Both the position numbers and the translations under genes were made by a program. From Thermoplasmatales archaeon (GTDB lineage Archaea; Thermoplasmatota; Thermoplasmata; Thermoplasmatales; Thermoplasmataceae), in contig DAHXNF010000032.1 in NCBI GenBank assembly GCA_027366585.1, positions 1-64,000 of the forward strand: a stretch of DNA of 64,000 nt, in the 5' to 3' direction. The notes beneath the pieces were generated by a model. The model saw only the letters and a program-made list of their open reading frames with translations, had not been told where the DNA came from and did not search any database. Positions 6,401-35,004 of the stretch are shown in pieces. Position 1 is the first letter of the stretch. Every line of letters begins with the position of its first letter.

Positions 6401-6670
6401 GTGGTCGATTATTTTGCACTGCTGGCCGGAGTCTCAGTCGTCCTGTCAATATTCATGATGCTGGTTACTATTAGAGCCGTGAGAAAAGGTGGCATGCGTA
6501 TTTTCAAGTATTTGGCGGGATCCTTTGCATTGATACTTGTCACAAACGCAATCGTTATTTTTGACCTTTTTTACCCTGCAATTCTCTCGAGCCTAGTTGT
6601 TCCAGGATTCATAATAGCAGATCTGCTTATTCTCCTTCTGTTCTATTCCGGTATAGTAAGAGGAACCTAG
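6401..6670 (+). CDS. small membrane protein, cassette copy A
   Basis: An 89-residue protein starting with GTG, made of about three hydrophobic segments (residues 5-25, 38-55, 62-85) with a basic loop (VRKGGMRIFK) after the first. It is the first gene of a three-gene cassette that recurs at 33.2-35.0 kb, where the counterpart is the 99-residue protein at 34705-35004. The wHTH gene follows after two bases. A TATA-like CTTTATATAA lies at about 6345-6354. No enzymatic motif is visible. A membrane partner or sensor for the adjacent winged-helix protein is inference from the conserved pairing. Confidence 0.7.
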   Translation: MVDYFALLAGVSVVLSIFMMLVTIRAVRKGGMRIFKYLAGSFALILVTNAIVIFDLFYPAILSSLVVPGFIIADLLILLLFYSGIVRGT

Positions 6671-6672
6671 TA

Positions 6673-7167
6673 TTGCCAGCCAAATCCGATACACGGACAG
6701 ATCTCCTGTCAATCATACAAGAAAACCCGGGTTTGCACTTTCGCGAGCTGCAACGTCGTTCCGGGCTTGCCACAGGACAACTTGAGTACCATCTTTACCA
6801 GCTTGAGAAAGATGTTAAGATATCTAAGCGACGCGATGGAAAGCTATTAAGATATTTTTCAAACATCTCGGGTAACCAGGAGGAAAGGGTCATAGTATAT
6901 TTCCTGAGGAACAGGGTATCGCGAGAGATAATCCTTGATTGTCTTGCTCATGAAGATAGGGCCTCGACAAGATCATTTGAGCGATGGAAGAAACACAAGC
7001 AATACGCTGATATGATGGAAAGCATGGTTGCCGAGAACATCCTTCATGAGGTTTCAGGTTCACCTGCCCTCGTAGATAAAAAGAAGGTACTGTCAGTTAT
7101 GCAGAAATACAGGCAGAGCTTCCTGGATACCATGGTTTCTGCGATCATTGATCTACTTGGACCCTAA
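6673..7167 (+). CDS. winged-helix transcriptional regulator, cassette copy A
   Basis: A 164-residue protein with an N-terminal winged-helix domain (about 10-65) of the ArsR-like/Lrp-like archaeal type: the recognition helix region ENPGLHFRELQRRSG is nearly identical to ENPGLHFRELQRRTG in the copy at 34213-34704. The C-terminal half ends in a KYRQSFLDTMV amphipathic helix also shared with the copy. It starts with TTG two bases after the stop of the membrane gene. Its TAA stop (7165-7167) overlaps the TAG stop of the convergent secreted-protein gene in the string CTAA. No ligand-binding cysteines are visible, so metal sensing is not suggested. Confidence 0.8.
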   Translation: MPAKSDTRTDLLSIIQENPGLHFRELQRRSGLATGQLEYHLYQLEKDVKISKRRDGKLLRYFSNISGNQEERVIVYFLRNRVSREIILDCLAHEDRASTRSFERWKKHKQYADMMESMVAENILHEVSGSPALVDKKKVLSVMQKYRQSFLDTMVSAIIDLLGP

Positions 7168-8201
7168 AATCTTCTGGATCTGTACGAAGTATATGCTACC
7201 CCAACAAGCAATAGGCCAATGACTGATCCTGCTGAGACAAGTTCGAGATTTTCAACAATCAGTTCATAAGCTTCATGGATCTTCTGGTTGATTATCTTGA
7301 TACCACTGATTGTTTCATTGATGACGGAAAGATATGGATCCTGAACAATACCTGTTCCGGAAGTCATTCCATGGTACTGGAATGCAAGGTACATGTCACT
7401 CCCGGTTTTCAGAAAGCTGTACTGCAGTGGATATGTAGCGCCATTCGCAGTATAATTAGGTGGCCACCAGAGAAGTCCCCTTGCGTGATCAAGCATGTTG
7501 GATCCACTCAGCGCAAACCCATTATACTGGCTCATTGGGGCATCGTCCGAGTGGCCAAAGAAGCCGATATAACTGGCCTGTTTTCCGTTTATCACCGCAC
7601 CAAGGCTCTGAAGCAGCACAACATTGTATGGAATGACTGACGTGAGCGGAATTGAGGATATAGTGATATAATTGTCAATCCTAAGTGTTGAAACCGTCAA
7701 ATTAGTAAAATTTGCCTCATTCGAATTGCTAGTGTTATTATGCGCATAGAGAGCGGGAACAATATTTCTTGCAATGCTTATCTGGACGGATAGTTTCGCC
7801 ACAGGCGACAAATTCAAACCCGGCAGAATGCGCGATGTCGAGATATTAGTCAGGTTCATGTCAAATCCAGTTGGGCTCAAGTTTGTGAGTTTAAGAGGAA
7901 AAGATGCGTTGAAGTATGTTACATCGTTCTTTATGGTCACATTCCAATCAACTGCCCTGAGATCTGCTCCAAGGAGAATGTTATGATACGACGCACCTAA
8001 TATCGTATTTGTTTTGATCTCTGCATAAACAAGAAGGTAGGAATAAGAAAAATTGAACTGGTCTCCGTTTTGCAAGTTTACAGAGATCCCGGGATAACTG
8101 CCAGTTGAGATGCCAACGTCCGAAACCGGAGAATATGCCATTGACGCAGGTAAGACGAGGAGCAATGACGCAACCAGGATAATCGAAAGCTTAATCGTAA
8201 T
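7164..8201 (-). CDS. secreted, C-terminally anchored protein, cassette copy A
   Basis: A protein of about 333-346 residues with an extracytoplasmic body rich in Asn, Ser and Thr glycosylation sequons and one C-terminal membrane helix (VSAGSVIGLLLVGVAYTSY) followed by a basic tail. The first conventional start is TTG at 8165, but that cuts into the signal peptide. Upstream in-frame codons encode a complete basic-plus-hydrophobic signal sequence back to ATT codons at 8195 and 8201, just after a stop, so a non-standard ATT start is likely and is used for the coordinates here. The C-terminal block QDPYLSV and the anchor match the protein at 33206-34216. No catalytic motif is recognised. Confidence 0.75.
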   Translation of the reverse strand: MTIKLSIILVASLLLVLPASMAYSPVSDVGISTGSYPGISVNLQNGDQFNFSYSYLLVYAEIKTNTILGASYHNILLGADLRAVDWNVTIKNDVTYFNASFPLKLTNLSPTGFDMNLTNISTSRILPGLNLSPVAKLSVQISIARNIVPALYAHNNTSNSNEANFTNLTVSTLRIDNYITISSIPLTSVIPYNVVLLQSLGAVINGKQASYIGFFGHSDDAPMSQYNGFALSGSNMLDHARGLLWWPPNYTANGATYPLQYSFLKTGSDMYLAFQYHGMTSGTGIVQDPYLSVINETISGIKIINQKIHEAYELIVENLELVSAGSVIGLLLVGVAYTSYRSRRF

Positions 8202-8264
8202 CTTTTATCAAGAGTAATAATAATTTATTTGTGGTACAATGTGAGCCGACACATCATTGGAACA

Positions 8265-8423
8265 TCAGGACAACTCTTCCTCCAGCTCGACCATAACCTG
8301 GTTAAGAATGTCCTCAAAGCTGATCCCGGTAAATTCTCTCAATCCGCCTATCTCAGTCCTCAACCTCGCGTAAAATTTATCGTCATCTTTATGGAATTCA
8401 ATATTACAGATTTGCTCTTCCAT
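8265..8423 (-). CDS. small acidic conserved-looking protein, unknown
   Basis: A 52-residue protein from ATG 8423, beginning MEEQICNIEF and ending in an acidic helix (VMVELEEELS). The frame remains open upstream to 8504, but the N-terminal extension looks unlike protein and the internal ATG has an AT-rich, TATA-like stretch about 30 bases before it. The mix of charged and hydrophobic residues resembles small archaeal regulators or toxin-antitoxin components, but nothing specific is recognised. It lies between two genes on the same strand without overlap. Confidence 0.45.
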   Translation of the reverse strand: MEEQICNIEFHKDDDKFYARLRTEIGGLREFTGISFEDILNQVMVELEEELS

Positions 8424-8575
8424 ACTCTCTATTCCGCAATTTACACCTGTAATTAATTGTTTCGCTGTCTTGAGAATATTGATCTCTTGAATCCAGATAT
8501 GCACGGCCAGTGAAACATAACCAGAAGCAAGCAGGAATTCGTGACTTAGAGAAGAATAGCCTTCAAATAATCAGT

Positions 8576-32614: not shown

Positions 32615-33103
32615 TCAATTGTCGGTTCCGGTACTGCTGCTCTTGGTCGAGTTGTCTGAGTTACTGGTCTGGTCGTTACTTTGATTGTCGTTGCTTTGAC
32701 CGTCCCCGCTCTGCTGGTCGTCGGTTTGATTATTGTCTCCGCTGTCTTCCGATGTGCTGCTTGAGTTGTCGCCATGTGAAACAAGCTCTACCGAAAGCAC
32801 TGCATTTGTGGACAGGCTGACTTCAACAGAGTATGTATTGTTATTTGGTGCTAGTACGGTTACGTCAACAACTGCAGTTCCATTTTCAGTATCGTTCTCA
32901 ATTTTCAGGATTTTTGTGGTTCCGTTTCCTGCGTAGTGTTGGTCGATGTACGCCACAGCCGCTTGCTCGGCAGAGGTCATGTTTGATGACAACGTGCTTG
33001 CCTGTGCCAAGTGTCCCGCCGCACCTGATGCCACGGTACCGACCGCAGCTCCTGATGCAATTATGACTAGAGCCATTATAACCTTCGTTAGTATTGATAG
33101 CAT
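32615..33103 (-). CDS. exported PepSY-like protein with Ser/Asn/Asp/Gln-rich tail
   Basis: A 162-residue protein from ATG 33103, preceded by one of the best ribosome sites in the window (AGGAGGTGA). The N-terminus has a signal-like hydrophobic helix (VIMALVIIASGAAVGTVASG). Residues about 45-105 look like a PepSY-type alpha/beta domain: AEQAAVAYIDQHY, then a beta pattern ending LSTNAVLSVEL. The last 55 residues are low complexity (repeated DNQSND, TSNSD and SSST strings), likely a disordered, glycosylated surface stretch. PepSY domains often inhibit proteases, but no protease gene is adjacent. The function is unassigned. Confidence 0.75.
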   Translation of the reverse strand: MLSILTKVIMALVIIASGAAVGTVASGAAGHLAQASTLSSNMTSAEQAAVAYIDQHYAGNGTTKILKIENDTENGTAVVDVTVLAPNNNTYSVEVSLSTNAVLSVELVSHGDNSSSTSEDSGDNNQTDDQQSGDGQSNDNQSNDQTSNSDNSTKSSSTGTDN

Positions 33104-33205
33104 TTTATTTTCACCTCCTGAGATAGAGAACAAGGGTACTGGCTAAAGTATTCCGGAACACGTATGTTCCAAAAAGTTAATAACTGTATTGAGAGATAAA
33201 TCCGC

Positions 33206-34216
33206 ATGAGAAGATTCATGATACTTGCGATCCTTGGCGTTTCATTATTCATGCTATTCGCTGCCGGAATCGCGCATGCAGATGATGGCGGAGACAAAGT
33301 TACTCTTTCAACATCACCCACGGTTACCGTCAGCCTTTCAAACAATACCTCAGTTAATGTCACTTATTCAGACATCTTTGTGGGCATGTCGACTGGAGTG
33401 GTCGGAGCCAGTTTTGCTGATCAATCCTGGAACATAACTAACACATCATCAGGATACGCTTACAAAGCCAGCTTCGATTTGACCCCTATCGGGGGATCGG
33501 ATCTATCAGATCAGTATAGAAGCATAATGAACTTAAGCGACAACACAACAGTTGGAGGAGATTCCACGCTTTCTCTACCCGTGACTGTCATCGTAAAGGT
33601 AAGTCACTATAACGGGTCAGTTTCTGAATTAAGTGTGAAGAACCTCACTAGCATGTTGAATGGGACAATATCTAACGTTAGTCTATCCACTTTAAAGCTC
33701 TCATTCGGGATTAGCTTTGACCTAACCCAGCAAATGATTGGAAACGGATCTGTCAATGTTGTCCTCGTCCAGACACTGAAGGGAGGAGACCAATCAAGCT
33801 CATTTAGCTCGAAAGAGGTTGATACGTATGAGAAAACCTCAGACTTAGGGCAGGGTATTGCACTTCTTAACAACAGCATTACTAATCTCTCGGCAGTATA
33901 CTGGTGGAACAACGATTTTTCGTATAATGGAATAAATGGAACAGATTACACAGTACTTGTTCCTGGAGACGGATCAACAAGTATTGCATTTGTATTCAAA
34001 ACACAGGCAGCATCCGGACAATATTCGCTCAGCCAGGACCCATATCTTTCGGTGAACGGCGCAAATCTGATAAATGGTAAAATCCAGGTAGTAACCCAGG
34101 CATTGGCTAGCTTCTTTCTTCAGCATGTTGAATTCTTTGGCGCAGGAGTTGCAGTCGGCTCTGTGACCCTTATAGTGCTTTACAGTATTTACAAAAGGGA
34201 CAGGATTAAAATTTAG
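33206..34216 (+). CDS. secreted, C-terminally anchored protein, cassette copy B
   Basis: A 336-residue protein with a complete signal peptide (MRRFMILAILGVSLFMLFAA, cleavage near AHA) and a body rich in Asn-x-Ser/Thr sequons. It has one C-terminal membrane helix (AGVAVGSVTLIVLYSIY) followed by KRDRIK. The segment VVLVQTLKG, an aromatic WW motif (YWWNNDF) and the block QDPYLSV before the anchor are shared with the protein at 7164-8201, making the two paralogues. The TAG stop overlaps the TAA of the convergent winged-helix gene in TTAG, exactly as in copy A. No enzymatic motif is recognised. Confidence 0.85.
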   Translation: MRRFMILAILGVSLFMLFAAGIAHADDGGDKVTLSTSPTVTVSLSNNTSVNVTYSDIFVGMSTGVVGASFADQSWNITNTSSGYAYKASFDLTPIGGSDLSDQYRSIMNLSDNTTVGGDSTLSLPVTVIVKVSHYNGSVSELSVKNLTSMLNGTISNVSLSTLKLSFGISFDLTQQMIGNGSVNVVLVQTLKGGDQSSSFSSKEVDTYEKTSDLGQGIALLNNSITNLSAVYWWNNDFSYNGINGTDYTVLVPGDGSTSIAFVFKTQAASGQYSLSQDPYLSVNGANLINGKIQVVTQALASFFLQHVEFFGAGVAVGSVTLIVLYSIYKRDRIKI

Positions 34217-34704
34217 AGTTCATCGAGCATCCTGAAAATTGAATATGCAACAGAATCGATGAAGCTCCTGCTGTACTTTTTGAGAAAATTTATTATGACT
34301 TCCTTATTGTTCAACGAAACACGGGCAGAATCAGCCTTTATTTCATAAGAAAGGATCCCATCGTGTACCATTTTATCCAGTGCTTTGATTGTATCGCTGC
34401 TGGGTTTTGGGATTTCACTTTCTCCAGCTATTGCCGTTCTTATTAAAACTTCTTTTGAAATTTGGTTTCGCATATGCATTGCAATTCTGCGTTCCATCAT
34501 TGTATCCTCTGTACTGGAGAAGAATCTTACTAGTCGATTATCCTTAATAGAATATATTTCCCCCTTCCTTTCCATCTGGTATAAATGATAGTCCAGCTTT
34601 CCAACTGCTGCTCCTGTTCGTCGCTGCAGCTCCCTGAAATGTAGACCAGGATTTTCAGTTATAATCTGAATAAGTTTGGATCTGAAGGACTCGTTTTCGT
34701 TCAA
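34213..34704 (-). CDS. winged-helix transcriptional regulator, cassette copy B
   Basis: A 163-residue paralogue of the regulator at 6673-7167. The N-terminal winged-helix region shares ENPGLHFRELQRR and the following GKLDYHLYQMERKGEIY segment. The C-terminal half is more divergent but ends in the same KYSRSFIDSV amphipathic helix. It begins with TTG immediately after the TAG stop of the membrane gene. Its TAA stop overlaps the stop of the convergent secreted-protein gene. Regulation of that convergent gene, or of the cassette itself, is plausible but not shown by the sequence. Confidence 0.8.
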   Translation of the reverse strand: MNENESFRSKLIQIITENPGLHFRELQRRTGAAVGKLDYHLYQMERKGEIYSIKDNRLVRFFSSTEDTMMERRIAMHMRNQISKEVLIRTAIAGESEIPKPSSDTIKALDKMVHDGILSYEIKADSARVSLNNKEVIINFLKKYSRSFIDSVAYSIFRMLDEL

Positions 34705-35004
34705 CTATCGCATACCCTTGAGGATCATTGTGTACATTACAATCAAAATTGCAAAGGCTAGAATAATTCCCGGGTAGATACTTGGGACGCTGATATATCC
34801 CAGCAATTCAAGCGAAGCAAAGACAAGGTAGACCATTAGGAATGCAGATATGAGAACCAGTGCGAAGAGAATTCTAACACTTCTTATTCTTAAAGTGCGT
34901 AACGTTCCTAAAAGGACTATTACGTTTATAACGAGGGACACTCCAAGAACTAGCAGGAAAATATCAATCGTGAAGGAACCGCCGACAGTCATATATTCAG
35001 GCAT
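34705..35004 (-). CDS. small membrane protein, cassette copy B
   Basis: A 99-residue protein with three hydrophobic segments (about 14-35, 45-65, 72-95) and a basic loop TLRTLRIRSVRIL between the first two. The layout and the loop match the 89-residue protein at 6401-6670. It starts at ATG 35004 and heads the minus-strand pair with the wHTH gene. A GATTTATCTT string about 25 bases before the start may be the TATA region. The function is unknown; it probably acts with the wHTH partner. Confidence 0.7.
   Translation of the reverse strand: MPEYMTVGGSFTIDIFLLVLGVSLVINVIVLLGTLRTLRIRSVRILFALVLISAFLMVYLVFASLELLGYISVPSIYPGIILAFAILIVMYTMILKGMR

Follow-up and report, generated by a model that had tools for sequence, protein, structure and literature searches.

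The window analysed here, a stretch of 64,000 nucleotides from a Thermoplasmatales archaeon, carries the same arrangement of three genes twice, encoding a small membrane protein (M), a winged-helix regulator (W) and a convergently transcribed surface protein (S). Do these three products work together and, if so, as what? By computation we found that the genes are linked, homologous between the two copies and co-inherited as a block, and that a conserved promoter element stands preferentially before S. Judging from these sequence patterns, we consider it probable, at roughly two chances in three, that the cassette is a self-contained switch in which M and W serve S as its dedicated, membrane-linked regulator. 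The steps that such a switch presupposes (binding of W to DNA, contact between M and W, a direction of control and a signal) we infer. The two cassettes and their neighbours comprise the following features:

M_A, 6401-6670, + strand: 89-aa protein with a GTG start and three hydrophobic helices; first gene of the M-W pair
W_A, 6673-7167, + strand: 164-aa winged-helix regulator with a TTG start and recognition helix ATGQLEYHLYQLEK; PF24266 match
S_A, 7164-8201, - strand: C-anchored surface protein with a signal peptide, convergent to W_A; start codon uncertain
Promoter element of S_A, TTGTACCACAA, 8229-8239, - strand: abuts the downstream AT-rich, TATA-like stretch
X, 8268-8504, - strand: gene for a small conserved protein upstream of S_A; locus marker
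P, 32615-33103, - strand: 162-aa secreted protein, acidic at its tail and encoded divergently from S_B
Palindrome GGAACACGTATGTTCC, 33155-33170, no strand: candidate operator between P and S_B
S_B, 33206-34216, + strand: 336-aa C-anchored protein with a signal peptide and a predicted beta-supersandwich ectodomain
W_B, 34213-34704, - strand: 163-aa winged-helix regulator with a TTG start and recognition helix AVGKLDYHLYQMER; PF24266 match
M_B, 34705-35004, - strand: 99-aa three-helix membrane protein

The open reading frames are as an earlier note on this DNA described them: copy A (6401-8201) and copy B (33206-35004) hold the same M-W-S block, inverted as a unit. As the note also stated, the TTG start of W directly follows the M stop, with a gap of 2 nt in copy A and 0 nt in copy B, and the stops of W and S overlap in CTAA, by 4 nt in both copies (7164-7167 and 34213-34216). 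Its view that the divergence is too high for a recent duplication is borne out by pairwise BLASTP, which gave A versus B identities of 31% for M (E 2e-7), 37% over 160 aa for W (E 3e-34) and 26% over 352 aa for S (E 3e-13). By these alignments, the A and B copies of all three proteins are homologous but old. W_A and W_B are the two W genes found in the window's genome, which is 85% complete.

The first in-frame ATG, GTG or TTG of S_A is the TTG at 8165, and a start at 8201 needs an in-frame extension with ATT/ACG codons; this leaves as candidates the TTG at 8165 and a non-canonical codon around 8196-8201. The copy-A-clade S genes (8160-8201 on the - strand in the window, and loci L020, L022, L066 and L067) contain no ATG, GTG or TTG near the expected leaderless start. 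At that position they share a conserved ACG codon followed by a conserved peptide, so a non-canonical start codon is possible.

We found W in 91 of the 117 genomes of the order. In a separate M profile search of these 117 genomes, 98/99 M matches adjoined a W match; a family search placed 49 of 50 S segments beside W, the remaining one being a further segment of an S gene already counted; and no genome of the 117 had M or S without W. Among the 91 extracted loci, an M-like ORF lay directly upstream of W in 89, and in 78 a convergent ORF, 255 aa or longer, was found at -30 to +70 nt from W. The product of the convergent ORF in locus L098 is soluble and unrelated, which brings the S genes to 77, and the remaining missing members fall at contig ends or in particular subgroups (families f2 and f3). 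These linkage counts reject chance co-location of M, W and S. The families do not occur mostly apart, nor are the secreted proteins unrelated, the two outcomes that the earlier note regarded as fatal to its grouping: the S proteins show direct homology and can be aligned as a single family, in which a DP motif is invariant.

The three genes are also inherited together. In trees of 63 loci, the copy-B clades were recovered for W, M and S, as was the copy-A clade, except that the M tree places one member, L065, outside it; with each of 16 paralogues, whichever of the three proteins was compared, the nearest neighbour was of matching cassette type. Copy A sits at the locus marked by X, and core copy B lies elsewhere with divergent P instead. 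Although X is upstream of S in 48 loci (core copy B being without it), we rejected it as a fourth cassette gene because it occurs in 74/77 family genomes, those lacking W included. P, which matches no Pfam family above cut-off, is present in 9/9 core copy-B loci and in no other locus; its tail is acidic and rich in Asn and Ser. A Shine-Dalgarno-like GGAGGTG precedes the ATG of P (32615-33133, - strand), and the facing S_B looks leaderless.

Upstream of S, we found the consensus TTGTACCA(A/T)AA immediately preceding a TATA-like, AT-rich stretch and lying about 40 nt before many S ATG starts, as expected for leaderless transcripts. Among the 76 S upstream regions with enough sequence, 64 contained TGTACC and 9 more had the palindrome GGAACA-N4-TGTTCC at the same place. 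The M-W pair lacks both: TGTACC was found in 0/88 M upstream regions (and in 12/189 other long ORFs of the same loci), and the palindrome in none of the 88. The longer form TGTWCCAWAA preceded 57/76 S genes, 0/88 M genes and 8/189 other long ORFs. In DHVE2/Aciduliprofundum the locus reads M> W> <S3 S1>, where S1 is the S family of the window and S3 a second family, and all eight of these other ORFs are S1 homologues divergent from S3; setting them aside leaves 0/181. The S genes without an exact TGTACC or palindrome are those of L077 (where the upstream sequence is cut short), L091 (with the near-form TGAACC), L112 and L120 (with CGTACC). Genome-wide pattern searches gave 0-6 TTGTACCAWAA sites per genome, about as many as for a reversed control pattern; the site is therefore not enough by itself to delimit a regulon. 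Since the M-W pair is without the element, no autoregulation is visible, and we dropped the idea that M-W controls itself through it. That an element is conserved before S and absent before M favours the earlier note's reading of the cassette as control of a surface protein; the "membrane-sensed" part of that reading may hold as well, the one observation that points to it being the near-universal pairing of M with W.

In other classes, S3 promoters carry related sites, often TTCGA-N4-(T/C)GTACCA. At the divergent S3-S1 promoter of DHVE2/Aciduliprofundum (L107, L092, L110), tandem and inverted GTAC(C) motifs alternate with TTCGAA palindromes at a spacing of about 22 nt, a pattern suggesting that several regulator dimers could sit on one face of the DNA.

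The earlier note went astray in calling the recognition helices of the two regulators almost identical: they read ATGQLEYHLYQLEK in copy A and AVGKLDYHLYQMER in copy B, and the changes accompany a different operator. The palindrome GGAACA-N4-TGTTCC occurs as a single perfect copy in the window's genome, between S_B and divergent P. At 9/9 palindromic S promoters, the W helix is GKLDY instead of GQLEY, and wherever our script found the helix of a cassette with a TGTACCA promoter, it was G(Q/H/M/V/L)(L/V)xY. The same nine palindrome cassettes are those with divergent P, so the palindrome may simply give each divergent promoter one half-site. Furthermore, the covariation is confined to one clade and thus probably arose once, and in lineages outside the order a D at that position of the helix accompanies TGTACCA sites as well. 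The covariation of operator and helix is therefore suggestive, but not proof, of direct recognition of DNA by W.

W belongs to a known family. Tested by whole-protein score against the Pfam gathering cut-off of 31 bits, W_A (56.8 bits, E 2.4e-15) and W_B (42.5 bits, E 6.9e-11) both matched PF24266 (HTH_HVO_0163_N). W is of the tandem-wHTH type, the second wHTH being clear in relatives and degenerate in the window's family. Haloarchaeal HTH_HVO_0163_N proteins, often annotated as ArsR/SmtB "metalloregulators", resemble W in their tandem wHTH and similar length, and two of three loci have an M-like gene directly upstream; unlike the window, the three loci that we read have no convergent S. M fell below all Pfam cut-offs. 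Three families, DUF7521, DUF7471 and DUF5985, resemble it in having three hydrophobic helices, a similar length and weak profile matches to some M proteins, but all these matches are below the curated cut-offs. For DUF7521 (PF24365, cut-off 27 bits), 2/37 M members matched weakly (best E 0.011), and the profile found no match in the window's genome. A basic loop between TM1 and TM2 and a basic C-terminus suggest an N-out/C-in topology for M.

Locus L162 (448-2649, - strand) encodes a 734-aa protein in which an ectodomain and a TM helix are fused to a W-family tandem wHTH, beside an ordinary M-W pair. This fusion indicates that the wHTH group of W can be membrane-tethered. We rejected it as a Rosetta stone for S and W, as its ectodomain matches neither S1 nor S3. 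Other candidate connections were dropped too: CsmR of Haloferax is an Lrp/AsnC-like regulator without the cassette context; and for a defence or mobile origin, PADLOC gave weak wHTH cross-matches of W_A to Csa3 (best 1.4e-4) and none for M, S or P, and PHROGs gave weak HTH cross-matches and nothing more.

The S of the window matches no Pfam, NCBIfam or PHROGs family, and we turned to its predicted structure. An AlphaFold2 model of S1 built on 43 sequences (pLDDT 89.9) has a signal helix, a mostly beta ectodomain and a C-terminal TM helix. When this model was compared with solved structures by VIA-align, the lysosomal protein GLMP ranked first (6nyq, Z 14.1, 3.4 A over 195 residues), and the next unrelated fold reached Z 10.8; Foldseek returned one match below 1e-3, GLMP in the 8r8q complex. 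GLMP's domain has been likened to cellodextrin phosphorylase 5NZ7 (PMC11252000), which is likewise high among the S1 fold matches. We thus predict that the S ectodomain is a beta-supersandwich closest to GLMP, among match lists that leave room for other relatives. GLMP/NCU-G1 (PF15065) also resembles S in having many N-glycosylation sequons (13 N-x-S/T in S_A, 15 in S_B) and in its type I topology, with a signal peptide, a luminal beta domain and a single C-terminal TM helix, a layout that the AlphaFold2 model and hydropathy both give for S. The sequence tests were negative: none of the 117 genomes had a match to PF15065 over cut-off, no S1 member matched it, and a profile search of PDB sequences did not find GLMP. 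The likeness is therefore one of fold and topology, not of membership. GLMP also differs from S in being a transporter's accessory subunit; no MFS transporter was seen in the cassette loci. For S3, the model (pLDDT 80.9) resembles supersandwich folds of the amine-oxidase/mutarotase kind. In sequence, hhalign gave no sign of homology between S1 and S3 (probability 5%), though supersandwich folds turn up as matches of both models. S3 of DHVE2/Aciduliprofundum matches part of the MAST_ArtA_sort model (TIGR04204; best E 3e-10), but at 39.9 of 150 bits it lies far under the cut-off, and the window's S1 gives no match.

How would such a switch operate? As a tandem-wHTH-type regulator dedicated to the neighbouring surface gene, W would bind TTGTACCA(A/T)AA, immediately before the S promoter's presumed BRE/TATA; in copy B, its site would be GGAACA-N4-TGTTCC, serving S and divergent P together. 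The position of the site on the upstream side of the BRE slightly favours activation over repression. M would be W's membrane partner, anchoring or releasing it according to the state of the envelope; their contact is suggested by tight gene coupling and by linkage across phyla. S, an anchored, sequon-rich ectodomain with a GLMP-like fold, would be the output, and it may also feed back on M. A more ambitious version, which we regard as doubtful, would make this a phylum-wide transmembrane circuit, in which S, its ectodomain being GLMP's archaeal relative, would report on the cell surface through M, W would answer on one dedicated promoter, and the operator form (single site or palindrome) would have changed together with the regulator, insulating two cassettes in one cell.

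The same observations could be read differently. S might be the sensor instead, its ectodomain forming with M a membrane receptor that controls W, which would then act mainly on unlinked genes. An ectodomain, a TM helix, a three-TM protein and a wHTH do resemble a one-component receptor that has been split, the L162 protein has an ectodomain, a TM helix and a tandem wHTH in one chain, and GLMP, to which S is closest in fold, serves a polytopic membrane protein as accessory subunit (PMC11252000). We nevertheless think this arrangement unlikely: the conserved element clusters at S promoters and is seldom met elsewhere, and M-W pairs without S are common outside the Thermoplasmatota.

Less likely again is that the element is bound by an unrelated factor, such as another regulator or a TFB paralogue, with M and W regulating something else and the linkage reflecting a shared pathway. 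That the operator/helix covariation is a single-clade event and that M-W has no element upstream would fit such a factor; against it, the element follows S solely where W is adjacent, in several orders of the phylum, and its form changes in exactly the nine cassettes with a changed W helix. That gene order is conserved without any functional coupling is barely credible. Copy A does share the fixed neighbour X, so local synteny there is old, but copy B keeps the block elsewhere with no X beside it, some genomes retain X having lost M, W and S as a set, and other classes keep S-type genes next to M-W in different orientations. Our preferred reading remains that of an M-W switch dedicated to S.

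Beyond the order, the M-W pair is found in other Thermoplasmatota classes, in Diapherotrites, Micrarchaeota and Aenigmatarchaeota (DPANN), in Methanoperedens and on haloarchaeal plasmids, where the M profile matches at E about 1e-8. In several lineages of the Thermoplasmatota, a C-anchored protein with a signal peptide often adjoins M-W, either convergent or upstream; in DPANN, haloarchaea and some families, M-W stands without a recognised S. As read from these gene neighbourhoods, the cassette family is kept side by side across much of the phylum.

We found no description of the cassette, the three-gene system or the promoter element in the open-licence literature. The pairing of a small membrane protein with a wHTH is known; new here are a putatively dedicated surface target and the conserved promoter element. 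Carrying its tag at S, the M-W-S set seems to be a dedicated and so far undescribed gene switch. For the largely open question of how archaea's numerous small wHTH proteins sense envelope state, M and W provide a candidate that is compact and widely conserved, with a target promoter that is defined and a site of about 11 to 16 bp. Having these features and two versions in one genome, the system lends itself to simple assays of binding and reporter activity. Should the likeness of S to the GLMP fold go back to a common ancestor, S would also provide a prokaryotic comparison for a eukaryotic lysosomal protein.

Some Thermoplasmatota lineages (families f14, f17, f20, f23 and others) have 9 to 15 W-profile matches per genome, hinting at many parallel M-W systems. 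The plasmid-borne haloarchaeal relatives of W (L253, L254, L255) lie near genes for halocyanin, NosL, a NosD/ABC transporter or FAD:protein FMN transferase, a neighbourhood in which a redox or copper context is possible.
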